64,000 nucleotides of DNA from positions 62,001-126,000 of the forward strand of contig JBBHKE010000565.1 in assembly GCA_037447655.1 (NCBI GenBank), given 5' to 3'. The notes beneath the pieces were generated by a model. The model did no database searches and had not been told where the DNA came from. It saw only the letters and a list, made by a program, of their open reading frames with translations. Of the stretch, positions 5,925-54,540 are shown piece after piece (positions within the stretch are counted from its first letter, which is position 1; each line of letters begins with the position of its first letter). Both the position numbers and the translations under genes were made by a program. Source of the DNA: Zygnema cylindricum. Lineage: Eukaryota; Streptophyta; Zygnematophyceae; Zygnematales; Zygnemataceae.

Positions 5925-5941
5925 TACAAACCTTACCTGTA

Positions 5942-12793: not shown

Positions 12794-12797
12794 TACA

Positions 12798-13300: not shown

Positions 13301-14545
13301 TAGCGTGCTCACAAAGTGCAACGCCTTATCGACAAATTTGAAATTTGAAATTCAAAAACCAATTCAAAATTTCAACCCCCTCCTGCCAAAACCGTACAAA
13401 ACATCAACATTGAACAGTACAAACAATATTGGAATTTGTCTGCGGTTTAGATACACTTTATTTTCTGTGGATTTCAAGGGGACCAGTGCTGTTCCATGGA
13501 ATCATTGCTCTGAACTATTGATGAAAACATTGTTTAGGAAGTTCTCCATTGAAACATATAGCAATCCCATTCACTTGTGATATATAGTTATTTAATTATA
13601 TGCTGATAGTACCGGAGAAGGAAAATCGATTCTCCATTACGATACGCCATCCTCGTCTCCATTATTTTTTTTTAAGTTACACACGTGTTACGGTACAGTA
13701 ACTTACGTTTACGTAAAATCTTAGGGCAAAAAGTTGAATTGTTGAAAGAGAAAGTTGTTGACGCTACGCGAAATTTGGAACGACAAAAAAACAAGTGTGT
13801 AAGAATCATCGCCGACATTGTGTTTGGACGCTACGAAATAGTTTACAAAAGGTCAGTTTTTAATGCTACGAGGTCATTTTATTGGCTAGGAGATCAATTT
13901 TATTGGCTTCGAGCTTCTCCCCGCTTCCCAGAGCAGAGAGGTGACGTCGAATTTCTTGTTTGGCCACAAAACGTACGTGCTCGCAGATTCGTTACCTTGT
14001 GCATCGTTTCAGAGGAACGGAGTAACGAACTGCTCTCCCTTTCAATGAAAAAGCACCCTAAGAGTTTAGAATCTAGACGCTCACCAGTGTACAGAACTTT
14101 ACTGTTTGTAGGAGCTTTTGATGCAATTTCCGTACGATTCGAAGAAAGCAGGAAGAAGAAGGCTTCCGTGTAATTCATAGCCATGGAAACAGCCGGAAGC
14201 ATTGCAGGAGCTCGCACGTTTCACGAGAACTTTACACGTGTCATTTGTCATCCTTTCTTTAGACAGCTGGCTTTTTCTAATGCGAATAACATGGTGAATG
14301 TGTGTAGACGATTGTTTTATTTTGTTTTTTTAGTTCTTTGAAATTTGGATTAAAAAACATAGATAGAGTTTGATTTAAGTTGCAATAAAGACATTCGCTT
14401 GCAAATCTTCTTATTGTTGAAGATTGTATATATCAAAATTTGTCCGAAAAGTGACGACACTTTCTGGTATTAGAGGAGAATGCAAGTGTTAGAAACGGTC
14501 CTGAATTCATTAGTTTTACGTACTTTATTGAAACAGTGATAAGGA
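13301..14545. other. Upstream region of the 14.5-kb ORF; no recognised gene
   Basis: It holds an open frame at 13685-14173 (+, 162 codons) with a basic, Arg/Lys/Ser-rich product that matches no family I know. It could be chance or a fragment. The rest is presumably promoter and 5' UTR of the next gene, but no convincing TATA box or transcription start can be fixed by eye. Confidence 0.3.
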
Positions 14546-15115
14546 ATGGAGTCGAGAAAGAAGCCAAGTAAACCAAGGAAACTTCCAAAAGTTGAGGAAG
14601 AAGAGAAGGCAAACGATTTTTCTTCTCCATTGCCTTTGTTTCATGTTACTCGACATCCAGGGTTTTGTAAGAGCCCAGTTCAGATAGGTTACATATGGAA
14701 TGTTGATCATGAATTCAAAATTAGAGATTTAGGTCAATGGAAAAAGTTAACGGCACCGGTGCAAAAATTATTGGAAAAGGAGTCTGACAAGGTGGAAACT
14801 GATACTTTGAAAAAATCAGAAAACCCTAAAAGCATGAATGCTGAGTTACATCTTGTAAAAAAAGTTTGTGAATCGCATAAGAATGGAACAAACCAGGGTG
14901 TAAAGGCGATTTCTTGCAATACTGAGAAAAAAGTTAGGCGTACTGAGGAGGACGACGAGGGGGAGGGGGAGGGGGAGGAGGAGGAGGAGGAGGAGGAGGA
15001 GGAGGAGGAGAAGGAGAAGAAAATCTGTTTGAAAAAATGTCGAAAGCGTGGTATCAAAGTTCGTCATAAAGCTCCTCCTCTCGAAGTGAACCAAAATGTG
15101 ACGACTAGAGAGGGA

Positions 15116-15146
<31 letters not shown>

Positions 15147-17656
15147 GCAGATGGGAGTTGCTGAATGCAAATGGTTCAATAAGGAGAAAGGCTATCAGTA
15201 GACCGACCGATTCACCGACGGAGTCTCCGTCAGGACCGTTGAGGGGAGAGGGAGAGAGGGAGGGGGAGGAGGGAAAGGTGCTTCACGTATTGAATTCTGT
15301 TAATAATCAGGAAAGTAGTAGAGCCTCTGAAAAGGAGGAAGACGAAAGTATCTCTCTCCCTCACCGTACACAAGATGAGGATTTGGAGCTTCATAAGAAA
15401 AATCAGGACTGTGACAAGAGAGGCTTTGTAAATAGTGTGATAAAGGTAGGAAAAAGAGGGAGAGCATCAAAAATAACTAAGGTTTTAAATGAATGTGGGA
15501 AGCTCCAGAGTCTCATTTCTGAAGAGAATTATCCCAATGACCTCCTTCTTGTCTCGAGAGAGATAAAACGAATGCAGTTAGGGTTGAGGAGTAAGAGGAG
15601 TAAGGGCGACCTGAGAGATGGGAGGAGTGGCAGAAAAGGAGTAGAGAGCGAGATCGCACAAAGACAGGGGAGTCTTGAGCTTAATGTTCCCTTGGAAATC
15701 GATAAAGAAGATGCAAATGCAATAGCCAATATGGGGCCTGAGGAGGAAATTCAAGGACAAAGTGTGGCGGAGAAGAGAGAGAGAGGGAATCCCGCTACAA
15801 ATGAATTGGTTGATTCGAAATGTGAAAAAAATGGAGAGGAGAGTGATTGGGAGGGACAGGAGGATGGGGGAAATTTGCTGTTGTCACTAGCAAACCTTCA
15901 GGAGAAAGTCGAGGAGTTGAAGTATTCACTGGAAGATGAGATAGGAGTGATGCTTTGGATAGTAGGAGAGGATGGAGAGTGGGTAAACATGCCAGATGTG
16001 ACTCATAACAGCCAAGAACATAGTGATGGACAATCCTGTCTTGGTAGTGTGAAAATGTGCTTTATTGGGCCTCTACCAGGGAAAGGAAATGGCAAAAAAC
16101 CTCAAAAGAAACGGACTTTGGAGGACCTTCTCAGAAGCTCACCAAAGTCTTGTTTGCGAAATAAAAATAAGGAAGAGAGTGGAGGACTAATAATGCAGGA
16201 GTTTTTGCCTGGCAATGGGGTTCCTCTATTTCAACAGAGAAAACGAATGAAGGTTGCGTTCCGCCAAGGAGGTCAGATTATTGACATGGAATCGTTTAGA
16301 GGAAAAGACAAGGAATACATTTTGGGTAAACCTGCCAGTGGAGTAGGTGAAGGTCCAGGAGAACCAAAACCAAGTGGCAAAGGTGAGCCTCAAAAAGTGG
16401 CAGTGGTTTGTAAAAAGAGGACTGGCTTCAATGGTCTACTAGGCCAAAAAGGAGAGAAAGAGAGGAGGAGAGTAGGAAAAACTGGAGGAGGAGGTGAAGG
16501 TCCAAGGGAACCAAAACCAAATAGTGAAGATGAGCCTCAAAATGTGGTAGTGGCTTGGAGAAAGAGGACTGCATGTGATGGTCTGCAAGACCAAAAGAGA
16601 GATAAAGAGAGAAGAAGAGGAAAAACTGGAGGAGTAGGTGAAAGTGAACCTGGACAAGTGGCGGGGGCTTGTAAAAAAGGGACTGCCCTTGATGGTTCAC
16701 AAGACCGAAAGAGAGAAAGAGAGAGGAAACTTTGGAGAAGTGAAAAGACTGAACGAGTAGTTAGAGTAGGTAACAGTCCAAGGGAACCAAAACCACGCGG
16801 TGAAGGTGAGCCTGGACAAGTGGCAATTGCTTGTAGAACGGGGAATGCCTTCGATAGTTTGCAGGACCAGACGAGAGAAGGAGAAAGAAGTGTTTGGAGA
16901 GAAGGAAAGACTGGAGGAGCAGTAGTTCCAGGGATTCCAAAACAGAATGGTGAAGGTGAGCCTGGAAAAGTGGCAGTGGCCTGGAGAAAGAGGATTGGGT
17001 CTGACGTTCTGAGGGGTGGAAAACGGAAAAAAGAGAGCAGTGTTTGGGGAAGAGGAAAGACTGGGGGAGCAGATGACGGTCTACACGAGCCAAAACCAAA
17101 AGTTGAAGGTGAGCCTGGACAAAAGACAGTGGCTTTTAGAAAGAGGACTGGGTTTGATGGTCCGCGAGACCAGACAAGAGAAATAGAGAGAAGGAGAAGA
17201 GGAAAACTTGGAGGAGTAGGTGAAGGTCCAGGGAAACCAGAACCAGATAGTGAAGGTGAGCCTCGAAAAGGAGCAGTGGCTTGGAGAAAGAGGGCTGGAT
17301 GTGATGGTCTGCAATATCAAAAGAGAGAAAAAGAGAGAAGAAGAAGAGGAAAAACTGGAGGAGTAGGTGAAAGCGAGCCTGAACAAGTGGCAGTGGCTTG
17401 TAGAAAGGGGACCGCCTTTGATAATTCACAAGACCGAAAGAGGGAAAGAGAGAAAAGTCTCCGGAAAAGTGGAAAGGCGGGAGGAGTAGTAGTAGTAGGT
17501 AAAGGCTCAAAGGAACCAAAATCAAATGGCGAAGGTGAGCCTGGACAAGTGGCGGTGGCTTCTAGAAAGAGAACTCAGTTTGACGGTCCGCGAGACCGAA
17601 AGAGAGAATTGCAGAGAAATGTTCGGAGAAGAGGAAAGACTGGAGGAGTAGGTTAG
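14546..17656 (+). CDS. Hypothetical highly charged protein with ~9 C-terminal repeats of ~50 residues
   Basis: A single intronless frame of 1036 codons. The start ATG at 14546 is preceded directly by in-frame stops (TGA, TAA), which supports it unless an acceptor lies just upstream. The N-terminal ~80 residues (including PGFCKSPVQIGYIWNVDHEF) look globular and match no family I know. An acidic tract (Glu/Gly, about residues 130-158), basic and acidic low-complexity stretches and a short predicted helix (NLQEKVEELKYSLEDE) follow. From about residue 590 to the end a ~50-residue unit repeats about nine times. Its core is EPKP-x-GEGEPGQVAVA-x-RKRT, then (F/C)DG-x-x-DQKRE-x-ERRR and GKTGGVG. Short units beginning GESEP occur at positions 3 and 8, suggesting block duplication. 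The length of the open frame and its purine-biased codons argue for a real gene. The composition suggests a nuclear, possibly nucleic-acid-associated protein; that is inference only. Confidence 0.7.
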
Positions 17657-17875: not shown

Positions 17876-19474
17876 GAGAGAGGACAATATATGCGTACGG
17901 GTAAAGAGAGAACTAATGAGGACAGGGTGGAGGAAGATGCAATTGGTGTGGTGTACATTCATTACTTAACATGAAAAAGCAGGTCATTGACGAATGTGTT
18001 CTACAGCCAGTTATCTATTTCCTTAGGTAAGTCTTGTATGAACTGAACTTGCCTTTGTAGAGCTCGCTGATGCCTTGCTTATTGCATTTTTCAAAATTAT
18101 TTTTTCAAAAAAGGTATATGGTTTTGGGTTATGCTCCGTGCTATGACCTGAGGACCTTAAGGGTGTTAATTGTGATCGCCAAAATGAAACGGGTTTCGGG
18201 TTTCTTTGGCAGCTTGAGGTCCCCAGAGAGTCAACGGGAGGCTTCTCTCTAGATCGGACATTCACTACGCTGGCCATGGCTATTTGAGTTAATCACTCTA
18301 ATTCGAGTGAGTGTTTTTTCTTACCTATGATCAGAAATTAGTTCTAATAACACTGATTAGTTAAGTGGCCCATAATATTTAACGTAGTTATAAATCGACG
18401 TTTTAAAAAATTGTTCAAATGGACTAATGACCTCATCTTGACGTCAATATTATTCCTTCAAGCCATATTAGGTTTGTGGATTCGTTACTAAAAATCATTA
18501 AGTAGTGTCACTATGGTTGACTTGATACGCCATGTCGCCCAATGGCCGATTTACTTATAAATTAGCTAAAATCTATAACATACTGAACGGACCTATAAAA
18601 TATTGTTCATACCCTTTTAATTGTTCCACTACAAAGATAAGCAGTGTGGAAAGTTCAATTTGGAAGTAAAAAAAATATTGTTGAAAAAAACCTAAACCTA
18701 AATCTAAACCTGTTCTTTATTCCGAATAAAAGAGTGTAGAGTTTTTTAGCACTTTTTTCAGTTTAGCTTTCAACACACAATTTACTGGAAGCAAGCGAAC
18801 TCCTAGGATGATGGTAGGAAGAAGGAAACTGATGTGAAGCAAACATGACTTTCATATTATACCCAAATATCAATTTTTTTACCATGAATGGAGAAAAATT
18901 GGATTACCGGATATCCGCTTATCCTCGTCTTAAATGGTACATAGCTATTCCGGTAAGTTATATTATAGTTTATACTTTATCTGAGTGTATGTCCTAACAT
19001 TTTTTATATTTTGCTTTTTTGATAGTACAGAATTTGGACGATTAGGTGAGAATTGCACATGACGGTGGGTTGAGGCCTCTCTTGGAATTGCTACACTGGC
19101 CAACCCTAATAAGAGTTAATCACTCTAATTTGGGTGAGTTCTTTTTCAACCCAAAATCATAATTTATTTTTGATAACATTGTCCAGTTAGGTGGCGCATA
19201 ATAAGCCAGGTTGGAAAACATAATTTAGTCTTATTCTAACAAAGTGTTTAGACTAATAATAGTTCACTAACTTTAATAGTGATGGGTGATTTTAAGAATG
19301 GTTCACTCCACAACAGTTTGCCTTTGCCTTGTACAATTAAGCAGATAACGAGGGTTCCTCGCTAATATTTGTCCATGTCCTTAATTTGTTGTTTTTGTTT
19401 GTAATTTTCTATTTGTAGTGTTGTTAATTTTCGTTTTGACACAGTTGTTTAAAAACAAGTACCAAAAGTCATTT
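17876..19474. other. Intergenic, with two related ~120-bp blocks
   Basis: No gene is recognised. The segments near 18265-18380 and 19085-19205 are diverged direct repeats: both contain a ctggcca motif followed by gagttaatcactctaatt, then ggtgagt-like and taataacatt-like sequence and agt-aggtggc-cataata. They look like two copies of an old dispersed repeat. Confidence 0.4.
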
Positions 19475-19870
19475 GTTCGAGTGGCTCAAATGAATATGAG
19501 ATTATCAGAGCATATCATGCAGAATCATTTCCACATACATGTCTTCTTTTTGTATTGAAGGGATTTTTTGCCGGTTTATGTTTCATTTCTCGTCAAAGTC
19601 TTTGGTAGTTTTCAAATTTATGACTAGCTTTCATGTTATTATCTGCAGATACCACAAACTGATATATTGCGAATGATCCCTGAGAATATATCCACGGGAT
19701 TCTCCTGTCAAGACTTCGATATTCTTTTGGAGTTTCGGTGCTGAGCTGATTTGTTTTACGGCTCAGGATATCGATATATTTTGTAAAGATGTTTTTCATG
19801 AGGACATTAATGTTCTCCCGTGCCCGTCTTCTCGGAGTCTGTAAAAGTCGTTCTTTCGGTTCCTCTAAAA
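19475..19870 (+). pseudogene. Decayed duplicate of the 3' end of the ARIA/ABAP1-like gene
   Basis: The segment is colinear with 1600-2060. It matches part of exon 3 (gcatatcatgca-aatc and catacatgt-ttctttttgtattg), the last intron (gttttcaaatttatgact), the acceptor (tgcagatacca), the last exon (ttgcgaatgatccctga then gaatatatccac) and the start of the 3' UTR (gagtctgtaaaagtcgt). The frame is broken by several small indels and substitutions. Because the intron is retained, this is a DNA-level duplication, not a retrocopy. Confidence 0.85.
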
Positions 19871-24872: not shown

Positions 24873-25312
24873 CTATTGCATTGTTTGCTGAGCTAGACGT
24901 TCTACAGTCATTTGCTCGTCCACCATTGTGTAAGATCCTTCATTGCTATTATGAGAAATTGTTAAAGACGGGTTTCGCATAGTAGCAACAGAAGAAGAAG
25001 GAAAAGGAGAAGAAGAAGAAAAATCCTTCACAGTGTTCCGAGATTCAAAACCCGGCGGTAATTTTTTTTCTGCCCTACGAGGCGAAGTAAAATCTGTCTG
25101 AGTTCGTGAAATGGGAGGAGGACGTATAATTGATTTGCCCAAAGTGTTGACAATATCAGTCGAATGGAAAGCTTGTTCAGAATGACTGGGATGAGAAGAC
25201 GCAACTGCAAAAAGCGCAGAAGGAAGAGGTGGGTTTAATCCAATAGCACCAAAAATTGAATGAGAACTGGTAGAACGAAAACTGGGAGAAGGAAGTGGTT
25301 GTTGATCTCGAT
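24873..25312 (-). CDS. Exon 9: C-terminal Ser/Pro-rich exon
   Basis: From acceptor ttaacaag|at, joining codon phase 1 with exon 8, open for 146 codons to TAG at 24873-24875. The product is Ser/Pro-rich (PLPSPSFRSTSSHS, SIIRPPPISRTQ) with no known domain. The same frame is open upstream apart from the single TAA at 25317-25319, inside the optional 192-bp intron. Confidence 0.5.
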
Positions 25313-28300
25313 CTTGTTAAAAAGGAACATGTTGGAACTCTTGGGGATAGTAAGGGATTTCTTGGAGAGTTAAGATTTTCCGAGGAAAACCACTAGAATA
25401 ACGTTGTTGTTGTTTTCCGGAAGCTTGATACATAATTTGATAGATTTCCTCAGGAGAGGTAGAAGCATACGTTACTGTGGTACAAACTGGCTGCGGTCCC
25501 TTACCTCGATCGATATATTGTATTGAGTTTGAAAGAGGATTTGTGAAAAGTTGGGAATGAGTGAAAAACAAAGAATTGTTCGTTCCGGAAAAACGTGAAA
25601 AGTTTGTTACTGGATTTGGTTTACTGGAGTATTGTAAAGACTCTGAATAAGAAGCAAACAAAGGCCACAAAGGACAAAGTAATAAGAGCTCAGAATCTTT
25701 TTCTTTCTAAAACATTTGCGACGGTGACAACTAAAAGCATATTCGATCCTGTTCAGAAAGGAATATGTTTGTTGAGAAATAGTTTCAAGTGAAACAAAAA
25801 GAAAAAATAGTGTGAGAATGTCTCTCGAACTGGATCAACACAATCCATGAGCTACACTGTCCCTCAAAGTCCATCACAGCAGTTATGAACAACGACTTAA
25901 AAAGACAAAAAAAAATCCTAAACCATGATTAAAAATATACAAAAAAGAGTAGATGTTTCCCTACCTTTGGCTTGTGGAATAGAAATACAACTGCTACTGA
26001 AAGGAACAGCATTTGTTTGGTTTCCAGGTTCCTCCCTCCGTTCAGATCTCTTTTGAATTCCTTCTCCGTCATTGTTTTTAACTTCAAGCTCTCTGTTTCT
26101 TGCTCTTTGACTCTTGCCAGGAGTAGAATGAACACTGAAATTGTCCTCCTTGGTTTCGTAATTTTTTTCACTCCTACATCCAGTTTCAACATGGTTTTTT
26201 GGATACTTATCCTGTTCTTGTAACTTTTCAAACATATTTATCACCTCCCTCCCCCTCTCTCTATCTCTATCCCTCTCCACTATCTTTCCTTCTCCAGCAC
26301 CAACAGTTCCACCTTGCAGAAACTCCTCCATATTCTCACAAAGTTTCTTTTTTTTTAATCCTTCTTTTTTCTTTTTTCTCCTTCTAAGTGCTCCTCCACC
26401 CTCATTCAACTCTTCCGGCTTCACTATCCCAGCACTTGACAATTTGGCCATAACAAGAAACCACAAATCACTACTCTTATCTACCGTATAAAGTGGAAAA
26501 TTTAAATTTTTTGGATTCGTGAAACATCGTCTCGCAGCAATGTCATAGGCGCGTTTCGCTTCAAACTCGGTATCAAAATTCCCAAGACAAAGACTCTTCA
26601 TAGAGGGAAGAGACACAAAAGCTCTCCACATTTTCCCACAAAGCTTCACTCCAAAAGTACATTTTTTTCTCAAAGCTTTTTCTTTGCGCTTGTGGGGTTT
26701 TAAGCAATCTGAACCCTTCTTTTCCACCCCTCTTTTTATTTTATTTGGAAGTTGAATTGCTTCTTCTTCAGTTTTATATTCTCCAAGAATTGTTCCGGAT
26801 GGTCCAAATGCGGCAAAAGTTCCCCAAGAAGTCCTATGACAACCCTCCATCCCTATCGAAACCACTTTCTTGTCCTCATCCTTTTCCAACTCACCTGAAA
26901 CATTCTTCTTTTCCATATTGCCTAGCTGTCCATTTCCAAGTACCAAAGAACTCTGTTTTTTTTCATTCTTCGGTTCCATACTTTCCATCGTAAAGTCCTT
27001 TAGTTCCGAAAATATCCTTACCTCTTCGCTTTTTTGATCCGCACTGCTGAGTGGAATTTCCTGAAATCCCCGAAATCCTCTCTCTTTTTCTCTCCCTATA
27101 TCTTCCCTCTCCACCATATTGCCTACCTGTACATCCTCAACTCCCAAAAACTCTCCCTCAACTTCAGTCTTCTCAACAGAATTATGATTTTGTTCTCGCC
27201 CAAAGTCCTCAGCTCCCATATTCTCTCCTGTTTCTTCTCCCAAATTGTCGACATTTAACGGACAGGAACCCTGAGATTGTCCATTAGAAACAACTTCCCT
27301 AACTTCTCCACCCGTTCCTTTACAAGCTTCTGCAGAAGATTCAATTCCCGACGTTAAAGCTCTACACTCCCTCATCCTTTTTCTGTTTACATCCTTATCT
27401 TCTCCCTCTCCGTTCACGTCATAATCTACTCCCCAGTGTTGTGGGAAATTTAATTTTTTCAAAATTCCTAACTGAATGGATTTCCTATCATATGCAAGAG
27501 CCGCTTCTTCCTCCGTTTTAAAAAACCCCAACTTTGAATCTCTCCTCTCTACATAACACCGAAATCGAGCTGCCCAAAACCCATTTCCAACTCTCGTCAC
27601 TCCTCTATATATTGAATCCTTTCTCTTCTTTCCTTTGTCCCTTTGCACCCAAGGCTCGATCGCCTTATCTCCTTCATTTTCTACCAAAACCTCATTTTCC
27701 AGAAGTTCCTGCCCTTCCCTATTCTCTCCTTCTGAGAATTGAGAATCAATTTCCTTCTCTGTCTTCCCAACCTCAAAAGACACTCTCCAATGATACTCCT
27801 CTGTCAAACCCTCCTCTCTCAAACCCTCCTCTTTCAAACTCTCCCCTCCCTCCACTCTCATGGCTAATTTATCCTTAAGATCGTCTACTCTCTTCTGAAG
27901 TGTCCACAACTTGTATGCCGTCTCCCCCTCCTCCTCCTCTTGAAGGTTATCAAAGTCAATTTCGACATCTACTTCGGTCACCTTTCCAGACACTGCTTTA
28001 ACAGACAAATTTTCTTCTTGCTTGCTCAGAAGTTGTTCAGTCAGAGGCAACCAAGTTGTTAATGTAATATTCGATGATGATGGTGCAGTTAAAATGGGAG
28101 AGATTTCATTTTCATTTTCAGATCGTGTATTATTTACAGTAGAGTCATCAACGTTTTTTAAGGATCGAAACTCCGTCTCGTCCTGTTTTCACACAATAAA
28201 TTGGAAAAGACACTGTTCACCAGAATTAGTATGGATCATGTTTTTTTCTAGAACTAATTTCTTAAAGTCCACATGTGATGAATGTGAACCACAATAATTA

Positions 28301-31300
28301 CAAATCCCATAATTTTTAGTCCACACTGTTTCCAATCCATACTACGAATTTTCCCACACTAATTAAGGTGGTCTTGGTGTAAATAAATTAAGGTGGTCTT
28401 GGTGTACATAATTGACCGTCAGAAATTAATAGCAGCGAAGCACCAATTTATCACTCGGGATTTTAAGTTTTTTTCTATTCTTGACACCCATAGGCTACTC
28501 CAAAGTCTTGGAAACACCATCAACTAAAGACGTGTTGTACATTAGACTGCATACGTTTCTGCATTTTAATCTTCTATCTTCACCTAACCCATGCATGATA
28601 CAAAACAAAAGCTTAGAAGTTGCCTTGAGATTTACAGCACTCCATCCTATGTAAAAAATGTTCCTGAACTAAAAAGGGATAAAACTCACCCAATCATCAA
28701 ACTTTTGTTGAAGGTCCTTGACCTTATTTCTCAAGGCATTCATGCTCTGCAGGAAGACCACAGCCTCCAAGGGTGACAAAATTTCGAAGTCTTTTTCGAG
28801 CTCCAACACTCCTTCCTCTATTTCTTTCTCCTTTGCGGCCTCCTTGAAAGATTCATTTACCACTTTCTCCCCTGAAACTGGCGCTAACAAAGATATTGAA
28901 GTGCCCTCAAGTTCTTGCTCTCTGTTTAACTTTTCTTTTATTCTGAGGAGTGCTCCTGTAGGGCTTTTGCTTCTACAATCCTGTACCAGAAAAGACACAG
29001 CAGGGCAAAAGGACAAAAAAAAACACAAATCATTCTCTGGTGTGGTACAAAACAAAAATCCTTACCATCCGGGAGTCCAAAGTTTTAGAGACAATGAAAA
29101 ACTTTCTCGTGGTTTCCAGGATGTCTAAAAGATTCAATGAAGTGCATTTCTCAAACCCACTAACCCAAAAATAGTGATGCTTATCAAAGATATCCTTGCG
29201 ATATTTGACGAGTCATTAAATTTAAGGTCTTAATATTCGGTCAATCAAATCAACAAGTGGCCATGGGTTTGAATATCGATAACTTCCAAACATTTTAAAC
29301 AACATTACTATGATTGAGTGTATGTGAACTTTTTCTTTTTTTTTTCACAAAAGCCCTTGGAGGGAAGATAAAATGAAGATAGCCCATTTGGACAACAAAT
29401 ATCATCTGCCTTTGTGTATGTCAAAAATCGAAAATTGATAGCCACCGAGAAAAAATGAATGAAGTTGACAATTTTCACTTCATTCAAGCTTGTGAGGTAT
29501 AGCTTTTATACATGTTTCAACAACGAACAAAACTTAATGTGTAACATTCGGTTATCGTGATTACTCCAATAACAATAATCAGGACAAAACAAATAGCAAA
29601 CATTTTTCTTTTCATAAAGTCGATACATAATTGATATCGCAATTAAGCGACCTTCACTTGATAAGCAACACTATGAATTAGAAATGATTATTTGCCTCAA
29701 CAATGAAGCTGATGAAAATACAAAAGATGTGAGCAGCAGAGGTAAAAGATAATGTAACAAATAATGGAATGATGAAGGCTTACAAGAGGAGGAAGTTCCC
29801 AAATACCAAAATCCCAAACAAGAGCCACACGAAGGTCATCGACAGAAACCTCATTTTTAACACCAGCTTCTCCAATTGGTTTGGGAGGAAGGTCGACCTG
29901 TCCCCATAGTCTCACCATAGAGAGTCAAAAAGTAAAAAAGGAGGGTTTAAAGGAGGCGAGCCAAAAAAGTAAGACATTTCCCTGTTACTTCTTCTACCTG
30001 CCCATTGAAAAAAAAATCTTTAAAACAAACAGCCAAAAAAAAACAGTCTCAAAGATCAAAAGTACGAACCCAAACTCTACCAATTTTGAAAAGGTTGAAA
30101 GTTATTGGAAGTTCAAAAACTTGAAGTACTTACCAATGCTATTGTCTCGTTTTTGAAGCCCGAGATGGTCCCAACCCACCAACATTTTGCTGCTAACCAT
30201 TCAACTTTATCTCCCACCTCCCAGTGACCTCTCCACGCTATTTCCATCAATTCCCTAACTCCTTCCTGCTTCGTTTGAGAAACCCTCTCTCTTGTATCAT
30301 TTGGGTACGGTAAATGACGTTGTGGCCGGATCATAAGCTCCCAGTCTTTCTTTGACTTGCCAGGATGTTGCTGATAAAGATTACACCATACAGTCAACCT
30401 TTCGCCTGCACCCTTTCCACAATTTTCCATAACTCATTAGCCATACGTTCGTGAGTCTATTTTGCCTATTTTGTCTATTTTGTTGTTGAACCTTACCAAT
30501 GTTGTCATAATTGTTACAAATCACATGCGTTTCAGAGGTACTCACTAAGCATAAGGAATTTCCCCTTCATAAAGTTTAGGCATCAAGACCACACTAATAG
30601 TAGTGAACATACAGTAACACAATTTAAGCTTAGTATACCTTATGTTGTTATCACAGCTAAGAACACTGATCGTACATTTTTCTGACCCAAAATCATAAAG
30701 TAGTGCTAATAACACTAAAGAAAGGAGTGGACAACAAGCTACTAAATCACCAAAACCTTAGTGCTTTACTCTAATAATGATCAAAAGTGAAGCTGCCAAG
30801 TAGTATTTCTTCTTGATGTATAGACCTCATATACATCGGCGGTATCTCGCATTTGTGACTAGATATGCGAACTTGAAAGGTAGACTATACAAAAGGTTCA
30901 TTTTTCTATTGCAATATGCTGGAGTACAAATTGTACACCTTTGGGTAGTACAATATGCGTACTGGAATGATCTGCAGAAAAAACTGGCCAAGTTGACTTA
31001 AGAAAAGTGAAGCAATTTTAGGACCAATAAATGTAATGAACTCCAAAATGCACTAAACTTATCGCTCCTACTGCCTCGTCTTGCGTGAGGCGCACATGAA
31101 AACGGCAAATACCTTAGAAAACTGAAAATAACAATTGAACATGAAAAAATGACTAGCATGCACATTAGTTTTAATGGTGTGAACTTGGCAATAAGTCTTG
31201 ACTAATTAGTATGGACAGGAAAATAGTACAGTCCACGGGGAACCGTGTACAGGAAAAATGGGTTTAAAAGACAATTGATGTCCAACTACTGTGGTCTACA

Positions 31301-34300
31301 TTAATTTACTCGTAAACATCAGATTTGTCGTCCATACCAATTATTGTGGAAATTGTGATTGTACGGATTGGTACTGTTTCTATGTTGCTGGATTGGTGAT
31401 TACAAAACATCAAAGGTTTGAAAAATGCACCGCCCTATGAAAGGAATAAGTGCGTTATACAAAAAAAGAAAAAACAAAACAGAAAAGCGCAATCTGTCCT
31501 TGAATTGAGGAAAGGACTTCTTTCGAAGAACTAAATGTTGCTTTGCTCTTACCTCCTGAGGACGGGAACCACATAATATTTTCTCTTAATATGCACTCAT
31601 CATCCATTGTTGATCTTGAAATTTTTTACTATTTCACAAGCTGAATGTATGTAGTTGTAAATCTGCATCTAACCTCTGTGTAGATATATTTTGGTGTCAT
31701 CACTAACTCTCAAACTAACTTTAGCTTGAACTTTTTTAAGACTCACAAAAAACCTGCATCACATTACACCCATACATCTTCTCAAGTTTTGCAACACAAA
31801 TGTCACATTTCCTTAAGGAATACCATCTTGCCTCATCCGCAAATACACCTTCACAACTCACCCTCGAAGCAGGTAACAAAATCTAACCAGAGTCCTGAGA
31901 GAGTTTCAAACCTCTAGAAGCATGTCGGCTGTCCGTGGCATAGTCCGGATACATAAGCTTGTATTCAATATTTGCAGCTTTACCTCCCCTTCTTCGGCTT
32001 AACTTTTTTTTCGCTGCATTCACATAAGGTGCTCCAATCCTTAACTCCACAACCTGACCAAAAACAGAAAAGTTAAAAGGTCAATAAAGACAAAAGACAA
32101 AAGACGAACGACAGAACAAACGACAAAAGACAAAAAGTGAAAAAGAAAAGAAAAAAGCACTTAAAAAGACAAAAGGACTCAAAAAGTCGTATAAAAGGTT
32201 CCCGAGAAGGTATATAATTTGTGCCGACATTTATATCTGAGGGAATTCCTACACACCTGTTGTTAAAGAGCAGACTGCTTTGCTTTACAGTTTTCATGAA
32301 CAAGGTGAACATATAAGCTTTAGATTTCAAAAAATAGTCTAAGAAAGATTTCAAAGTAATAAAAAAGCACAATAGATTCATGCTAATACCTGTGCCAAGA
32401 ACCATGCGCCTCTGTAACCCTCCTCAAAATCACAAACCTCAACATTTTCTCCCAATTTAAATGGAGCGCCTTCTTCTCTCACGTGGCTAAAATCCAGAGG
32501 GAAAGACACCATTTTAGGAAGTTTCCAGTGAGTAAATACTGTCCTCGTCGTACTCGTGGGTTCTTTCTGACCAGATAATTTTTCTTGTCCCTTATTTCCT
32601 TCCGTTTTTTCTGCGTGAACACAGTCTGGACAAAGCCACATTCCTTCTGGAACTCGGACCATTTTGGGATCCAAACAATCCATATGCCATCCGGTATTAC
32701 AGTTGTTATCACACAAAAGCATCGTATCTTCTGAATCGAATTCTCCACAAATTTCACAGGAAACATCTTCTACCCAACCCGTCTCTTTAGACGATTCTTT
32801 GTCTTTAGTTACAATATGCGCATTTACTCCATCTCCATCAATTTCCAAACCATTGGTTCCAGAATTTTGGCTAACATTTTGCTCAACAGGAACAGTCCTC
32901 CTTGGGTCAACTCCATAACCAGCATCTCCCAATAAACTCTCCTTTTCTATAGTAACTTCTATCGATTGATTAACAACATTGTCAGTTATTTGAGCTCCTT
33001 CACCCACCAGTCTCTGATTCTTAACACTTTCCCTAGTACATTCAATCCCTTGATCATCTTCACGAACACCAACCTCTACCAAAACCTCCTTCTCTACTGA
33101 AAATTCCTTCCCCTCAATATCTCCTTTCCTTTTACTTGCAAGATTGCCATTTACGCAAGCTCCTTCACTTATCGATATCTCGTTTCCTGAATTTTTCTCT
33201 GGACAGTCGATCGTTTTCAATTTAACTTCGACAGCGAACTCCTCAATCGACCTCTTCTCCTCTTCAGAAAAACATTTCTCTCCAGCTATGACCTTTCCAC
33301 CTACGCTATCTCCTCCAGTTGTCAAAATACAATTTCCAGAATTTTCTTTAGAAAAATTAGCCGTGTCTGAATTAACTCCATGACTAACATCTTCTAGTTG
33401 AATTTCCTTCTTTCGACACATTTCTCTCTCTTCAGAAACAGTTCCACTCACAATCGCCCCCAAATCTTTCGACTTTTTGTCCCCAAAATTTCCCAAAATA
33501 CAGTCATTCCTTCTTCGATCAACGTCATGACTGACACCCTCTACTCGACTCTCCTTCTCTTGAGACATTTCTTTCTCCTTAACTAACAAAATTTCACTTC
33601 TCATAACTCCATCACTCATTGATCCTGTCCTCTCCCATACAACTCGGGAATCGACATCAATGGAGCTGTCTCTATTCCCCCTAGTCTCCCTATTCTCCCT
33701 ATTCTCCCTATTCTCCCTATTCTCCCTATTACTCCCTATCTCGAAATTAGACGCCACCTCCACTGCAACATTTTTAAGCAGAACCTCTGATAACATAGAG
33801 CTCATTTTCCCTCTTTCCTCTCCACTCAAACCGACCTCAGGAACCCTTTCCCTTCCTTCCTTTAGTAGTTTTTCAGAGGACGGAGCACTAACTTCTTTGT
33901 TGTATCTCTCTAACTCCATGGGTTTACTTTGGACCTCAAAGAGAGATGGCAAATGTGGAAACTTTTGTGAATTTTCTCCTTCGAATTTGTTAGACTCTAA
34001 ATCATTAGACAGGTATTTTTCTGCCCAAAGATAAGCCTTATTTTCCTGTACTTCCATCTCCTTTTTCTCCTCCTTACTTTCATGACGTTTCTTTTCCAAA
34101 AGACAGTTATTTCCAACAGGAGAGCAATTCCCAAGGTTCTCCCATCCCTGTCTCTCAAACGCGGGTGGTTTGCTCCCACTCCCTCTCCCTCTCCCAAAAG
34201 ATCCCATGCAATCAACTCTTTCAATGCTCTCTAAATAAAGTCCAAGACTGGGATCCTCTTCCCAACTCTCCTTCCTTTTTGGCATCACTCTCCCTCCAAT

Positions 34301-37300
34301 TTCCCTCTCTCTGCATTCTCCACTTACTGATATCCCGTGTCCAGAATTCCATCCTTTACTTTGATCAAATCCACTAGTTAACTCACCTTTCCCAAACGAC
34401 TTCTCCTCTCCCTCCTCCACATTTTGCTGAAATTCTATCGCAGAAGCCCCATTTCCACCTCTGTCAGGCCCCTTCTCTCCTCTCTCCTCTACGTTTTGCA
34501 TACTCCCACCATCCACCCTTGCATGAGCACGCCTTCTCCCACCCTTCTCCCCACCAACTCTCTCTCCCTCGCTCCCTCCTGATCCTTCCCCTCCCTCCTC
34601 TCTCCCCTCTCCCTCGTCTCCCTCCTTTCCCTCCTCTTCACTCACTCTCCCACCTTTCTTCCCTCCTAAGTCGTCCTCTGCATTTTCTCCCTCCTCTCCC
34701 GCCTCTCCCTCCTCTCCCGCCTCTCCCTCCTCTCCCGCCTCTCCCTCCTCTCCCGTCTCTCCCTCCTCTTCTTCCTCTCCTTTACTTTCACTCCACACCT
34801 CTAAGTTCTGTGAGTGCAAATCCGCCACAACTTCAACATCTTCCGACTCATCCACCCTTTGTGTATACTGTACATGAACAAACTGTTTATTTATATTCCC
34901 TATTAGAGTGGTCCTCAAAATGTTTTTTCTCTCACTAAACCTTTTGTTTCCGATTGCAGAAGAGAACCTTTGAGAACCTCCACACCCTCCGTTGACCTCT
35001 CCCTGCGAATTCACCCTCTCCAACTTCTCTTTCTCGATGAACGCTTTCTCCAACTTCTCTCTCTCCACCTCCTTTCTCTCCGCCATCTTTCGCTCCGTTA
35101 ACTTTCTCTCTAACTTCTCGTCGACTTCTCTCTCCAACTTCTCTCTCCTCTCCCTCTCCAACTTCTCCCTCTCCGACTCTTCCTCGTCGACCTCTCTCTC
35201 CAACTTCTCGCTATCCACTTTCTTTCTCTTTGCCTTCTTTCTCTGCAACTTCTCTCTCTCATCGACTTCTCCCTCAAAATTCGCTCTCACAGAACTCTCT
35301 TCCTCTAACATCTCACTCAACTTCTCTTTCACGTGGACCTTTTTCTCCAACTTCTCTCTCACCGACTCCTCTCGCTCCAAGTTTTCGTTCTTGTCGACCT
35401 CTCCCTCCAATTTCTCTTTCTCCGACTTCTCTCTCTTTAACCTCTTTTGCTCCGTTTTTTCTTTTTCACCCAAATGTGGAGGCTTCCCTGACTCGCTTGT
35501 GCTTTGCAATATACTATCCCCCCCATCAGAGGAGGCATTCTTTGTTTTATTAAAATCCTCCACTTTTTTTGCACTTTCTAGACGAAACTCAACACGATTT
35601 AACTCAACACACTTTTTCAGAAGTTTTAACTCCGTTAAATCATCATCTCTGTCTTTCCTTTTGAAAGACTTTTCTCCAATAATTCTTCTCCGAGGCACCT
35701 TTACTTTTCGGGTCCTCTCAACTCTTCCACAGCAATGTGCGCTACATTCCCTCAGTGAAACGTTTTTATGTTTTATCTTTTGAAAACTCTGTTTCGGGTA
35801 AAGTAATTCATTCTTTTCACGCTCAAAGTCGCGACTGTCATTCTCAGACTCTTCTCCATCCTCACTTAAAGAAGCCACAAACTTTTTGTATTTAAATGAA
35901 ATCTTCATTTTAAACAACCGCCTATCTGGGAAAGCTGCATTTAATTTTCCCTTCCTCAATTTAATTACGTTCAAATTTGCATTTTCTAGAAGAATCCTTT
36001 CATTCCTCTCTTGTGAGAGGTGTTTTCCACAGTGTGACTCCTCTCTGATTGTTTGTTCCTCTTTCTTGTTCACTCGGCTTGAAAGGGCTTGAGAACTACA
36101 TTTCTGCAAAAAAAAAAAAAAAAGGTCCACTGTCAAGGAGCCCTGGTTGGAAATGGCCCATTTAATGCTCGATTTCCGTTGAAAGAAAACAACACAAGAG
36201 AAAGGAGAGAGAAAATAATATATAATTGGAAAAGAAACCCTAAAACAAGCAAATAAGGTAAGGAGGGAAAGGTAGCTATGTCATAACAACAATAACAGAG
36301 TGAGATTTCATTAAGATTTTGATAAGGTTTAGTCTTTTCCCAGAAATTCATGCATTCCCCCCATAGCAATTTGCCACTTTCATAAAATGAATCACATATT
36401 TATTCTCTTTAAAACCTCTTGCATTCAGATATGAGAGGGAGAGGGAGAGGGAGAGGGAGAAGGAGAGGGAGAGGGAAAGTGGGAGTGAGGGAGACGGAGC
36501 TGGAGAGACTTAGCTGGAGAGACAGAGCGGGAAAGACGGAGCGGGAGTGAGAGTAACATATGTTCTGATGCATGTTACCACCAATATGACCATTCTATAG
36601 TCTTGACAAAAATAAAAGAATAAGATGTCTTCTGGAAAAGACACGGCCATATTGAAGTGGAAATGTTTGCTTTTAGTATGTATGGGAAAATCTAATGGCT
36701 AAGGAAAAAAAGGCAATATAGCATGTTCAAAAAAATTGCCTGTGAGTCAATGGAGTTCGTCATACAAAAATTGAAAAGGCGGATCATAAAGGTCACGGGC
36801 AAGGTAATAACCTTTCAAGACGTTAAAAAGAGCCTTATATTCTCATCACCCATAAACTAAGCGGCAGCATCTATTCCAAAAATGACAGAGTGCAGGAATT
36901 GACAAGAAGCTCATCAAATTGAGGGGCCTCGCTTGCTAACCCACGGGAAGAGGGGCAAACCAATTTAGAGTTGATGGTCTCATGACATTCAACTGAGACA
37001 TTTTACCAATCAGAAAATAGTTTTGAATGGGAAGAAACGGATAATGGAAAGTTTAACATACTCCTCGACACCGATAAGATACACCTACGCATTCCATTTT
37101 AAGCATGTTTGAAGCAGAACAAACGAGAGAAGTAGGTTGGCAGTTGTAAAAAGTGGCTTGACTTGACAGTATTTTCAAACATAGCCATTTCGCATTATTT
37201 TTGCATGTATGTACGAACATCCATGATTATTTTGTGAAACACTTGTAGTGGTTCTCACTATTAGCCATCCAGTCACTAAAAATCACAAAATTCAGCATAG

Positions 37301-38018
37301 TGGTAACAGCGCGTCATCTATGTCTATCGTGAAAAAATGTGCCATCCATGTGGAAATTTCATCTTGAAGATTGTTTTCCTAGTCAAAAACCTTCAGCTGA
37401 ATTCTACAATTCTGGGAAATGTTCCATTGAGTCACTTCAAACAAGATGAACCAATGAAAACCTATTCAGCAAAAGTCTCCTTTAATGGTAAAATTAAAAG
37501 GAAAAATGGGAGAAAAGGAAAAGACAACATACCTCCAAACCAATTTCGCAATGACACTCCTCCACTCGAAACAGATACTCAGCAATTTGGATCGTACTTC
37601 CCACATCAAAAGTACGAGGAAGTTGGCAAAATACCGGTTCTTGATTCACATGCACTACAGGTTGAGATTTGCTTCCCAGATTTGTAATATTAAATTTATT
37701 CCCTTCAGAGCAAGAAATGACACATTGCCTCCTTGAAATGGACTTTGGTTTAACAATGCTGTCCAGTATGATGTCAGAGTTTTTGTCCCTACCGAAAATG
37801 ACATCATGCCCTTGCAATGGATAACAAAGTAGATGGCCATGGCTTGAAGAGATGTGAAATTTTGGATGAGAGAAAAAGGGAGCCATTTGTGATATCAAAG
37901 AGGCATTAACTTTATTTTGCTTTACAACAAACCTTACAGTATTGTAACACGAGCAGCTTTGCGAGTTGAAATCCAAAACTTTTGATGGTATTCTTACTGT
38001 AAATGTATCATGTCGCAA
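24873..38018 (-). CDS. FHA-PHD-Agenet-Agenet-AP2 multidomain nuclear protein (spliced gene model)
   Basis: Exons on the minus strand: 38018-37533, 36103-32390, 32053-31912, 30432-30134, 29897-29784, 28980-28690, 28182-25965, 25642-25505 and 25312-24873 (TAG). Each border is GT/AG and the phases agree throughout, for 7842 nt or about 2613 residues. Order: FHA; a long Lys/Glu-rich disordered region; a C4HC3 PHD finger; tandem Agenet (Tudor-like) domains, each split by an intron; a coiled coil; one clear and two degenerate AP2-like domains; and a Ser/Pro-rich C terminus. FHA binds phosphothreonine, PHD and Agenet read histone tails, and AP2 binds DNA. I infer a chromatin-bound regulator or scaffold. 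I do not know a described family with this set. The weakest links are the 1.43-kb intron after the FHA exon and the A-rich acceptor at 30433. Two or three separate genes remain possible. The start could be Met at 37886 instead. Confidence 0.6.
25505..25642 (-). CDS. Exon 8: C-terminal Ser/Asn-rich exon
   Basis: Starts after acceptor cttcttattcag and completes the split codon left by exon 7, then reads SLQYSSKPNPVTNFSRFSG and onward. At 25504 a strong donor (CGAG|gtaagg) can be used. If it is not, the frame continues for 61 codons to TAA at 25317-25319. No known domain; the composition is low-complexity and probably disordered. Confidence 0.55.
25965..28182 (-). CDS. Exon 7: AP2 domain exon (one clear, two degenerate AP2-like segments)
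   Basis: Opens after acceptor gtgaaaacag at 28182 and stays open for 739 codons to donor CCAAAG|gtaggg. At about 27445-27615 a clear AP2/ERF fold reads YRGVTRVGNGFWAARFR, GFFKTEEEAALAYDRKSIQL and LNFP. Near 26760-26870 a shorter copy (WGTFAAFGPSGTILGEYKTE) lacks the helix AYD. At about 26495-26660 a third reads TFGVKLCGKMWRAFVSL, NFDTEFEAKRAYDIAARRCF and LNFP, with the Arg-Gly start altered to FGV. The YRG and AYD blocks define AP2 and contact GC-rich DNA. The arrangement differs from the euAP2/ANT tandem and from single-AP2 ERFs. Charged linkers separate the copies. Confidence 0.85.
28183..28689. repeat. Intron with a duplicated 24-bp unit
   Basis: Within this intron of the minus-strand gene, attaaggtggtcttggtgta occurs twice in tandem at about 28361-28408. 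No other feature is seen. Confidence 0.5.
28690..28980 (-). CDS. Exon 6: charged coiled-coil segment
   Basis: 97 codons, phase 0, between acceptor tctggtacag and donor TGG|gtgagt. The exon is Glu/Lys-rich. Its last ~35 residues, FLQSMNALRNKVKDLQQKFD, have regular hydrophobic spacing expected of a short coiled coil. A similar L-x-x-LQ-(K/R)-V-(D/E)-(D/E)-LK pattern occurs early in the next exon and in the protein at 14.5-17.7 kb. It resembles the C-terminal coiled-coil region seen in DUF724/Agenet proteins, where it mediates dimerisation; that parallel is inference. Confidence 0.65.
29784..29897 (-). CDS. Exon 5: second half of Agenet domain 2
   Basis: 38 codons, phase 0 at both ends, between acceptor tggggacag and donor CTT|gtaagc. 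It encodes VDLPPKPIGEAGVKNEVSV and then DDLRVALVWDFGIWELPPL. The DLR-x-A-x-x-W-x-x-G-x-W signature is the last strand of plant Agenet domains, continuing directly from the WWVGTISGF segment of exon 4. Confidence 0.8.
30134..30432 (-). CDS. Exon 4: linker and first half of Agenet domain 2
   Basis: It restores frame after the phase-1 donor of exon 3 (142+299 nt = 147 codons). It encodes WELMIRPQRHLPYP, equivalent to the IRP hinge between tandem Agenet domains, and then WEVGDKVEWLAAKCWWVGTI, the first strands of Agenet 2 with its conserved V-(D/E)-x3-x3-WW-G pattern. It ends at CATTG|gtaagt. The acceptor (gctaatgag) has a CTAAT branch-like motif but no pyrimidine tract, so the left border is the least certain of the gene. 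Confidence 0.65.
31912..32053 (-). CDS. Exon 3: rest of Agenet domain 1
   Basis: It opens in phase 0 after acceptor ttttggtcag and encodes VVELRIGAPYVNAAKKKL, a basic RRRGGK loop and IEYKLMYPDY. This completes the first Agenet domain begun in exon 2 (GAWFLAQ|VVEL). It ends in phase 1 at AGAG|gtttga. The frame would reach a TAG soon after if that donor were not used. Agenet domains are plant Tudor-like folds that bind methylated or unmodified H3. Confidence 0.65.
32390..36103 (-). CDS. Exon 2: Lys/Glu-rich disordered region, PHD finger, start of Agenet 1
   Basis: 1238 codons open from an acceptor with an exceptionally long T tract (36104-36120) to donor CAG|gtatta. The N-terminal ~200 residues are basic. 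About residues 230-390 are a (D/E)-R-E-K-L-E-R-type charged repeat. Near 34680-34780 lies a GEEGEA array, and near 33660-33730 an NRE array. At about 32620-32760 a PHD finger is clear: CEIC, an LLCD-x-x-C pair, GWHMDC and WLCPDC give the C4HC3 zinc ligands. The exon closes with FKLGENVEVCDFEEGYRGAW, the first two strands of an Agenet domain. PHD fingers read the histone H3 N terminus. The residues giving K4me3 preference are not obvious, and EDTMLLCD resembles fingers that read unmodified K4. Confidence 0.85.
36104..37532. other. Large first intron of the multidomain gene, with a purine microsatellite
   Basis: The 1.43-kb gap between the FHA exon and the long Lys/Glu exon. It contains a gagagg-type run at 36430-36480 that decays into ggagagac-type units to about 36550. 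No further exon could be recognised. If the FHA exon belongs to a separate gene, the promoter of the PHD gene would have to lie here. Confidence 0.5.
37533..38018 (-). CDS. Exon 1: FHA domain
   Basis: 162 codons ending at a strong donor (GAG|gtatgt). An FHA fold is visible: FGRDKNSDIIL (the Gly-Arg of strand 3-4), then PKSISRRQCVI, where the family usually has S-x-x-H (here S-R-R-Q, so the His is replaced), then a NLGS segment and a final strand EYLFRVEE. FHA domains bind phosphothreonine peptides through the conserved Arg and Ser, and both are present. The first Met is at 38018; Met 45 (37886, MAPFFSHPKF) is closer to the domain and may be the real start. The exon ends in phase 0, as does the acceptor of the next exon. 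Confidence 0.7.
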
Positions 38019-42714: not shown

Positions 42715-43164
42715 TCATGTCTTCATCTGAATCATATCACTAACCTCCCCTTCCTCTTCTTCCCATTCTATCAGATTTTCTTCATAGTTGACATCCCTAG
42801 TCTTCTTTAAAAGTCTGAGATTAGTGAAGACCCATACTAGATCATTAGCCCCTTTAGCCGTTAACCTATTTCTTTTCTTTGAGTGAATATGGTCATATGT
42901 TGACCAATTCCGCTCACAGGAGCTGGCAGCTGAGCACTGTGCAAGTATTTTTACTACTACCTTCTGCAAAATAGGGGTGGCACACCCAAACTCTTGCCAC
43001 CACTTCCATGCTGGCATCAACTTTGAACAAGATATTGCCAGTTCCCTACCAAAAACACACTCAAACTCTCTATATTTTGACAACTCTATGCGGGCAACTT
43101 GTTGCTCCTCTATATTTAGAAGCATCCTCTCCAACATTGTCTGAAAACCTTCCATAATAGTCAC
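42715..43164 (-). pseudogene. hAT transposase, C-terminal fragment
   Basis: The translation contains SAASSCERNWSTYDHIHSKK and RNRLTAKGANDLVWVFTNLR, the hAT C-terminal dimerisation signature (A-x-S-x-x-x-E-R-x-(W/F)-S). Only about 150 residues remain: no DDE catalytic core or BED zinc finger is seen. At its upstream side (about 43165-43190) it abuts a copia fragment. Confidence 0.85.
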
Positions 43165-43189
43165 GTTGGCACGCTGCCCATATGCATGG

Positions 43190-43953
43190 CCGTTTCATGT
43201 AGATGGTCTTTTCTAATTCTCCATGCAAGAAAGCAATTTTAACATCCATTTATTGTATTTCCATATTTTCTATTGTCGCTAGACTTAGCAAGATTCTGAT
43301 AGTAAGAAATCCAACAACTAGGGAGAAGGTTTTTTCAAAATCAATACCTTCTTTTTGATTATACCCCTTGGCCACTAGTCTGGCCTTATACCTTTCAATG
43401 GTGTTGTCCGGGTTGAACTTCACTTTGAATACCCATTTGCTGCCGATTGCTTTTCTGCCTGGTGAAGATCCACCAACTCCCACGGTTGTGCCTCTATAAT
43501 AGATTTCATTTCATCATTCGCCGCCTCGATACAATGATTTCTCTCAGGTGATAAAAAGGCCTCCTGAATTGTTAGAAGCTCCTCTGTAGCTGCAGAAAAA
43601 GCAAAGTGGGAGCTTGCTTGTAGACGGCTGCTAAATCTCTTTCCCCCCGGAAATTCTGAGGCTGAAGTTGTCGGCAGTCTCCGATTTGCCTGCCTTTGCT
43701 GATCCACGACATGTGGTGTAACAATTTGTTACGCCTCAGATGGAACTTGTTGTGAAGCCTCCTGTGAAGTCACTAAGGGAACTGAAGGAAGAGTGGTCCC
43801 ATTTGGTTGTGGAAAGTAAACCCGCTGCGTGTGGTGAAAAATGACATATTCTTGGTTTTCATTTGTCGATTTGTCTGGCACTTGAAAAGAGTCAACCGAA
43901 TCCATCTTGAAACTCTGAGACCTCCATAAGTCCTTAGAGTGGACAGCTTCCAA
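43190..43953 (-). pseudogene. Ty1/copia pol fragment (integrase-RT linker and start of reverse transcriptase), a different family
   Basis: The minus strand encodes [20 protein letters not shown] and LVAKGYNQKEGIDFEKTFS, the start of a copia reverse transcriptase, preceded by linker sequence. Frames are broken between 43420 and 43483, near 43710-43730 and again near 43245. It stops before the YVDD region. The sequence differs from the two large copia elements to the right. Confidence 0.8.
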
Positions 43954-50223: not shown

Positions 50224-50514
50224 CTAGTCAATCTTAATTTCAGACCACACTTCTCCCTGCACAAAATTAGCTTAGGGGAAGGCACAGGTTTGGTCATTAT
50301 ATCTGCTACCATCTCACTATCTGGTCGGTACTCTAAACTGATTATTTTATTTTCTACTTTCTCTCTATCAAAGCTGAGTCTAATGTTCATGTGTTTAGCT
50401 TTAAAATGATGTTTATGATTGGCAGAAATAGCGATTGCTGCTTGATTATCACAAAATATTTTCTGCACACCACTCTTAACCAAGCTCACGAAGTAAAGAC
50501 TTGACCCATATCAA
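50224..50514 (-). pseudogene. Copia RNase H C-terminal part, out of frame with the rest of pol
   Basis: Encodes FCDNQAAIAISANHKHHF and MNIRLSFDREKV, then MVADIMTKPVPS, the usual end of copia RNase H. It is separated from the main pol frame by a TAA at 50515-50517 and by a small deletion near 50478-50482, relative to the other copy at 59150. Confidence 0.85.
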
Positions 50515-54491: not shown

Positions 54492-54540
54492 ACTTTCCCA
54501 CTATATAAAGCCAGTTCCATTAAAGATTGGTACCCTAGAG

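Follow-up and report, generated by a model that had tools for sequence, protein, structure and literature searches.

A predicted eight-exon gene joining FHA, PHD, tandem Agenet and AP2-like domains in the alga Zygnema cylindricum

Introduction

Plant transcription factors usually rely on separate chromatin readers. The stretch analysed here, 64,000 nucleotides (nt) of the Zygnema cylindricum genome (contig JBBHKE010000565.1, positions 62,001 to 126,000; hereafter the window), raises the question of whether DNA binding and chromatin reading can be encoded together: exons for an FHA domain, a PHD finger, a tandem Agenet and AP2-like units follow one another on its minus strand. Do they belong to one gene or to several, and what might the product do? 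An earlier note had proposed a single reader of ~2600 residues that links a phospho-signal and histone state to a DNA sequence. Our analysis supports a single gene across all eight exons as the best reading, and a rather probable one. We also lean towards regarding its predicted 2,478-residue product as a likely chromatin-docked DNA-binding scaffold, although several contact residues depart from those of the known readers.

Results

An eight-exon model with a single, terminal stop

The exons assemble into a predicted gene (24873-37886, minus strand) of 2,478 codons, shorter than the length first proposed, whose sole stop lies at its end, in agreement with the earlier note. That note had begun the gene at 38018, while the first exon of the present model begins at an ATG at 37886. 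It had also counted eight phase-matched junctions; all introns do have GT-AG borders, with phases compatible across the exon junctions, but there are seven of them. Nine open reading frames (ORFs) were scanned with Pfam, at curated cut-offs of 20.7 bits for FHA, 24 for PHD, 27 for Agenet and 33.3 for AP2. The proposed order on one strand was borne out, running 5′ to 3′ from FHA through PHD, tandem Agenet and a charged linker to the AP2-like units, which are divergent and fall below the cut-off. The features of the model are as follows (aa, amino acid positions).

37533-37886, minus strand: exon 1, aa 1-118, with the ATG (37886) and the FHA domain
36104-37532, minus strand: intron 1, 1,429 nt, FHA-to-exon-2 join
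32390-36103, minus strand: exon 2, aa 119-1356, within one 1,300-codon ORF
32618-32764, minus strand: PHD finger, aa 1232-1280, Pfam PHD 35.2 bits
30320-32464, minus strand: Agenet 1, aa ~1332-1432, split over exons 2, 3 and 4
32054-32389 and 30406-31911, minus strand: introns inside Agenet 1, between exons 2/3 and 3/4
31912-32053, minus strand: exon 3, from the spliced model
30134-30405, minus strand: exon 4, end of Agenet 1 and start of Agenet 2
29787-30226, minus strand: Agenet 2, aa ~1464-1531, split over exons 4 and 5
29898-30133, minus strand: intron inside Agenet 2, between exons 4 and 5
29784-29897, minus strand: exon 5, end of Agenet 2
28690-28980, minus strand: exon 6, aa 1533-1629, charged linker without known domain
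28183-28689, minus strand: intron 6, 507 nt, Agenet-to-AP2 join
25965-28182, minus strand: exon 7, aa 1630-2368, three AP2-like units within charged protein
27430-27621, minus strand: AP2 unit 1, aa ~1817-1880, WRI1/ERF1 similarity, Pfam 15.2 bits
26725-26850, minus strand: AP2-like unit 2, aa ~2074-2115, degenerate
26482-26664, minus strand: AP2 unit 3, aa ~2136-2196, WRI1 similarity, Pfam 18.4 bits
24873-25204, minus strand: exon 8, C-terminus containing Ser/Pro, and stop codon

Exon 2 runs from a Glu/Lys/Arg-rich low-complexity region to the PHD finger and the start of Agenet 1. Exon 6 gave nothing above any cut-off in the Pfam scan; a scan of NCBIfam returned a single sub-cut-off match for the FHA exon and none for exon 7. 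A recoded, read-through TAA in the last exon was ruled out, since a strong acceptor before 25204 opens that exon in phase and a 1,064-codon Copia frame in the window stays open when read with the standard code.

The FHA and Agenet joins

The join between the FHA exon and the remainder of the gene is very strong. Splice sites were scored with a plant splice matrix and compared with 789 decoy ORF pairs (ORFs of at least 60 codons, from the plus strand at 18.5-42.5 kb and from the minus strand outside the gene). The sites of intron 1 are the best in the model (the donor ranks within the top 0.3% of GT and the acceptor at a fraction of 0.000 of AG, on the same strand), and their strength was reached by none of the 789 decoy pairs joinable in phase. 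Further support comes from the 65 codons of exon 2 that lack a start, whose coding score is +13.5 bits. These two results make it very unlikely that FHA is a separate small gene, the remainder starting at the first ATG of exon 2 or in an unseen exon within intron 1, even though intron 1 is long and the FHA exon, read on, stops after 12 codons (37494).

The middle introns pass an internal test. The Agenet match is 24.7 bits for exon 2 alone in the Pfam scan (28.4 in the genome search) and rises to 36.9 bits, in two stretches and above the cut-off, after splicing of exons 2-5. The two split Agenet domains described earlier are recovered from the spliced sequence, although the second stretch is weak on its own.

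The Agenet-to-AP2 join

Intron 6, which would connect the Agenet and AP2 parts, is the weakest link of the model and is not proven. Several observations weigh against a single gene at this point. The sites are unremarkable (the donor ranks within the top 5.2% of GT and the acceptor within the top 5.7% of AG), their strength is equalled by 49 of the 789 decoys (106 of 789 are joinable in phase under other, looser thresholds), and exons 6 and 7 can be joined in two in-phase ways, the second being equal or stronger. Given these decoys, the phase-matched GT-AG borders of intron 6 are weak evidence alone. The earlier argument that such borders would be unlikely for unrelated genes was too strong for the AP2 join, while no decoy reached the strength of the FHA join. 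It should be noted that ordinary sites are normal in this gene, since intron 3, which is backed by the Agenet domain match, scores much like intron 6 (donor and acceptor 6.7 and 5.7 vs. 5.7 and 5.8, respectively).

Coding scores were computed with codon frequencies trained on the domain-bearing parts alone, leaving out exon 6 and the initial 107 codons of exon 7. Both of these score 0.30 bits per codon, compared to 258 overlapping non-coding windows that average -0.49 and reach at most -0.12; exon 8 is near zero (-0.01). This null is not independent, its windows being the source of the background and including introns 1, 3 and 5 of the model, and the initial 54 codons of exon 7 score just 0.06 bits per codon, both of which also count against the join. 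An in-frame ATG is absent from exon 7 for 107 codons and from exon 6 for 79. Start-less yet coding, the AP2 exon apparently depends on a coding exon upstream.

The competing explanation is that two genes lie side by side on the same strand, an FHA-PHD-Agenet reader that would finish with exon 5 or exon 6 and, downstream, a divergent AP2 gene of its own that begins within intron 5, exon 6 or intron 6. Beyond exon 6 the frame stays open for just 6 codons, up to a stop at 28669, and a short alternative first exon (28596-28555) scores 8.1 (coding plus donor, unpenalised for the search) vs. 5.7 for the joining donor. The decoys that reach the splice strength of intron 6 favour two genes as well, as do 20 AP2 matches elsewhere in the genome, none of which has a PHD-Agenet match beside it, within the limited sensitivity of a search that detected AP2 itself in just 13 of the 20 locus records (one record is downstream, some upstream parts are shorter than 10 kb owing to a contig end, and one contains N). 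However, only ~70 nt would separate the stop of the upstream gene from this best alternative exon in intron 6, a cramped layout into which a 3′ end and a promoter would hardly fit, and the full 507-nt gap would have to accommodate a 3′ end, a promoter and a 5′ leader. Exon 6 and the codons of exon 7 before its first in-frame ATG score as coding, read-through past exon 5 gives 28 strongly non-coding codons (-16.1 bits), and Agenet and AP2 occur in one protein in Marchantia (PMC6781369). We therefore consider two genes unlikely. The single gene first proposed is upheld by the coding score, the Agenet splicing and the FHA join, its Agenet-AP2 join being the unproven part, and a transcript spanning all exons is predicted.

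Predicted properties of the domains

The PHD finger scores well above its cut-off and has a complete C4HC3 set of ligands (C1234, C1237, C1249, C1253, H1258, C1261, C1276 and C1279). Its best sequence matches in the PDB are CHD4 (4.1e-13) and, second, ATXR5 (2.1e-12), whose PHD finger reads unmodified H3K4 (PMC7718874). Eight contact residues of ATXR5 were taken from that paper and their numbers mapped by hand onto the aligned chain: five are identical here, one is conservatively replaced (Leu37 to Met) and two are changed non-conservatively. The finger thus appears similar to the type that reads unmodified H3K4, with two altered contact positions. It shares this type with the ATXR5/PAIPP2 PHD fingers described in the same paper, retaining V23, L39, C40, P60 and G62 of ATXR5, and differs from ATXR5 in having one more residue between zinc ligands 3 and 4 and in the lack of any SET domain seen in the gene.

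The best PDB sequence match of the Agenet pair is a tandem Agenet, 6ie5 chain A, presumably Agenet 3/4 of ADCP1 judging from the residue numbering; the second Agenet alignment crosses the 30134/29897 junction. In ADCP1, an aromatic cage of Tyr, Trp and Phe in the second Agenet reads H3K9me2 (PMC6318295). The ADCP1/AGDP readers of H3K9me have the tandem Agenet pair in common with our gene, but there are three pairs in those proteins and one here, where it is fused to PHD, FHA and AP2.

The FHA domain reaches 36.7 bits in the ORF that contains exon 1. Phosphothreonine binding by FHA domains usually requires an Arg and a Ser, plus a structural His. G32-R33 and S51 are present in the predicted protein; the usual His position is occupied by Gln54.

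Exon 7 resembles plant AP2 proteins in the protein search (from 2.1e-6). Unit 1 matches WRI1 (2.2e-8) and ERF1 (1e-4) among PDB sequences and retains the YRGV motif; unit 3 matches WRI1 (1.7e-5) and has kept the second half of the domain. Unit 2 gives no match to Pfam AP2, and its score was reached by 1 in 1000 shuffles against unit 1 and by 4 in 1000 against unit 3. On these comparisons units 1 and 3 are clear, if divergent, AP2 units and unit 2 is degenerate. Both clear units are recognisably related to the AP2/ERF factors WRI1, ANT and ERF1, from which they differ in scoring below the cut-off and in sharing a large charged protein with chromatin readers, within which they occupy a single exon. 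The order strand-strand-strand-helix is expected of AP2 domains. It appears in single-sequence folds of units 1 and 3, which are low-confidence models (mean predicted local distance difference test, pLDDT, 51.5 and 64.3, respectively).

A number of these features count against the proposed chromatin-docked scaffold. Matches of FHA to PDB sequences are weak only (best E 0.026). In the PHD finger, Gly31 of ATXR5 is replaced by Phe, and Asp44, which contacts H3R2, by Asn. Only one of the three ADCP1 cage positions is kept in Agenet 2 (W306 as W1480; Y301 is A1475 and F323 is D1496, the last pairing lying in a low-confidence part of the alignment where neighbouring residues are likewise non-aromatic), and ADCP1-type reading of H3K9me by the pair is therefore not supported. 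AP2 stays below the Pfam cut-off in the whole exon 7 ORF (23.6 bits) and in units 1 and 3 individually. Structure searches with these two units gave no match at E ≤ 0.001 (0/90 and 0/473, respectively), and AP2 was absent from the 50 rows shown for each.

These deficits raise the possibility that the gene is single and has lost its Agenet and AP2 binding functions, the product being mainly an FHA/PHD scaffold with structural repeats. The depleted cage, the low scores of units 1 and 3 (15.2 and 18.4 bits, where the cut-off is 33.3) and the unrecognised unit 2 would all fit. We regard this loss as doubtful in view of the YRGV motif and WRI1/ERF1 similarity of unit 1, the preserved second half of unit 3 and frames that are intact across 2,478 codons. 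The reader linking phosphorylation, histones and DNA that was first envisaged is accordingly weakened at its Agenet cage, at two PHD contacts and in AP2 units far from canonical.

Nearest described relatives

A subgroup of proteins with three AP2 domains is known from Taxus, Ginkgo, Physcomitrella and Marchantia (PMC6781369). TcA3Bz1 (Taxus), Gb_05581 (Ginkgo) and MARPO_0093s0032/PTQ32953.1 (Marchantia) carry B3 and zf-C3Hc3H domains, while other members are without B3, zf-C3Hc3H or both; the AP2 motifs are termed variable within the subgroup. The Marchantia protein PTQ32953.1 combines Agenet, B3, zf-C3Hc3H and three AP2 domains, giving this type of fusion a precedent. Like the Zygnema gene, subgroup members have several divergent AP2 units per protein, and PTQ32953.1 also has an Agenet on the N-terminal side. 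Compared to TcA3Bz1, Gb_05581 and PTQ32953.1, the Agenet is tandem here and B3 and zf-C3Hc3H are absent, neither having matched among the exons and spliced pieces scanned with Pfam. The words 'PHD' and 'FHA' occur nowhere in the main text of that paper.

Could the gene be a divergent member of this land-plant subgroup, and not an independent combination? Its three AP2-like units and N-terminal Agenet recall PTQ32953.1, the subgroup tolerates variable AP2 motifs and does not universally have B3 or zf-C3Hc3H, and unit 2 finds its best match, a weak one, in a unit of another locus of the same genome, C2585 (17.7 bits vs. 17.3, also weak, for ANT). That locus fits the subgroup better: B3 (37.6 bits), zf-C3Hc3H (42.6) and a divergent AP2 (16.1, cut-off 33.3) lie in order on one strand, with no Agenet match within 8 kb upstream. 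From its domains, C2585 is the better candidate for the TcA3Bz1 subgroup and likely its algal counterpart; in 2019 the subgroup was reported from Taxus, Ginkgo and bryophytes only (PMC6781369). In contrast, the studied gene is without B3 and zf-C3Hc3H in the pieces scanned, and ANT domains give units 1 and 3 higher scores (42.4 and 34.7 bits) than C2585 does (29.3 and 27.3). Its membership is thus improbable. An AP2 alignment of 21 rows helped little with units 2 and 3.

Among plant Agenet proteins, PHD has been reported alongside Agenet (PMC4634149). None of the partners DUF724, ENT and BAH described there matched in the exons and pieces scanned here, and our gene has FHA and AP2 in addition. 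The earlier statement that no described family has this combination needs narrowing, since Agenet-AP2 in Marchantia and PHD-Agenet in plants exist, but the set of four appears new within the published material available to us. The four domains were not found together in the full-text literature, in which few subscription papers were covered, nor did the same literature hold anything on Agenet/PHD/AP2 in streptophytes or on FHA/AP2/PHD in algae. Pairs of them do share a text: Agenet and FHA in one proteome paper, Agenet and AP2 in five papers including PMC6781369, and PHD named next to AP2 in two. The architecture is a novel form of known chromatin-reader and AP2 proteins, and no new category.

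Copies and homologues

We searched the genome (352.8 Mb, 2,689 contigs; the window lies in contig C429) with a query comprising the PHD finger, Agenet and linker, scoring 103 matches out of 423 candidates. No second copy of the gene was found among them: five are its own exons and the 98 others stop before the Agenet, ending at or before query residue 107. The genome holds seven Agenet matches, of which the exon-2 Agenet of the gene is the weakest, as that search sees the exon-2 part alone. An AP2 family search gave the 20 matches mentioned above, none in C429, and the AP2 units of the gene thus escape that search.

Several loci were rejected as relatives. C1108 matches in the PHD finger alone (46%), the remainder being a different protein. 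C1477 and C1321 share the same partial Agenet match (profile 1-25) in an ORF without a PHD finger by eye. C1071 is an ERF-type AP2 cluster in which no Agenet was seen by eye, and C608 has zf-C3Hc3H, with neither an AP2 nor an Agenet match in the 8 kb read.

The protein searches, too, speak against the proposed architecture, in that no homologue of the whole was found and the matches were to AP2 or PHD alone: 37 with a precomputed AP2 domain, three animal PHD proteins and one fungal PHD protein. Those matching PHD jointly cover candidate lengths of ~440 to 4,300 residues; all need shared 5-residue words, and distant orthologues can escape.

The 98 PHD-finger copies outside the window are 31-51% identical to the PHD finger of the gene; many are in short frames, some with stops. 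Such a number (~100) suggests a mobile element carrying a PHD finger. Near-identical pairs of genes were also seen, on different contigs or on one (C187/C1192, C1477/C1321 and two places in C1329), as expected of allelic or recent segmental duplication.

Other features of the window

The remainder of the window contains a frame with repeats, possible gene fragments and mobile elements.

14543-17653, plus strand: 1,037-codon ORF, Glu/Lys/Arg-rich, with nine ~49-residue repeats (a 143-nt unit present in nine copies); Pfam gave nothing at E ≤ 0.1
18000-19600, plus strand: short open pieces resembling armadillo-repeat fragments by eye, e.g. AHDGGLRPLLELL; possibly a degraded or intron-rich gene
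50257-54635 and 58931-63323, minus strand: two Ty1-copia-type elements related by several stretches that are 80-88% alike; reverse transcriptase and integrase domains are present in the first
42718-43194, minus strand: hAT transposase dimerisation region, 39.1 bits
44233-44242: 10-base N gap, near the hAT region
5303-6295 and 12517-12805: nested inverted repeats that may represent a hairpin-type mobile element; the part at 12.5-12.8 kb shares sequence with the first
5802-6064: inverted repeat with 127-nt arms, 98% complementary and 9 nt apart

Discussion

How might a single product with these domains work? We propose a scaffold in which the PHD finger would recognise the histone H3 N-terminus when K4 is unmethylated, while the Agenet pair might supply an extra protein or histone contact in which an ADCP1-type methyl-lysine cage is not used. 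AP2 units 1 and 3 would hold a nearby DNA site, and FHA, at the far end of a charged tether of ~1,100 residues, could recruit or release a partner bearing phosphothreonine. We infer every one of these binding steps. The wider idea, which we consider evenly balanced between right and wrong, is that of an algal fusion of a phosphothreonine reader, a reader of unmodified H3, a cage-less tandem Agenet and AP2 DNA-binding units, through which a kinase signal would be placed at chosen DNA sites where the histone state permits.

If true, at least one streptophyte lineage would have DNA binding, histone-tail reading and phospho-reading physically linked in one protein. Alongside the Marchantia protein and the C2585 locus, the gene suggests that AP2 units have joined other nuclear modules more than once.

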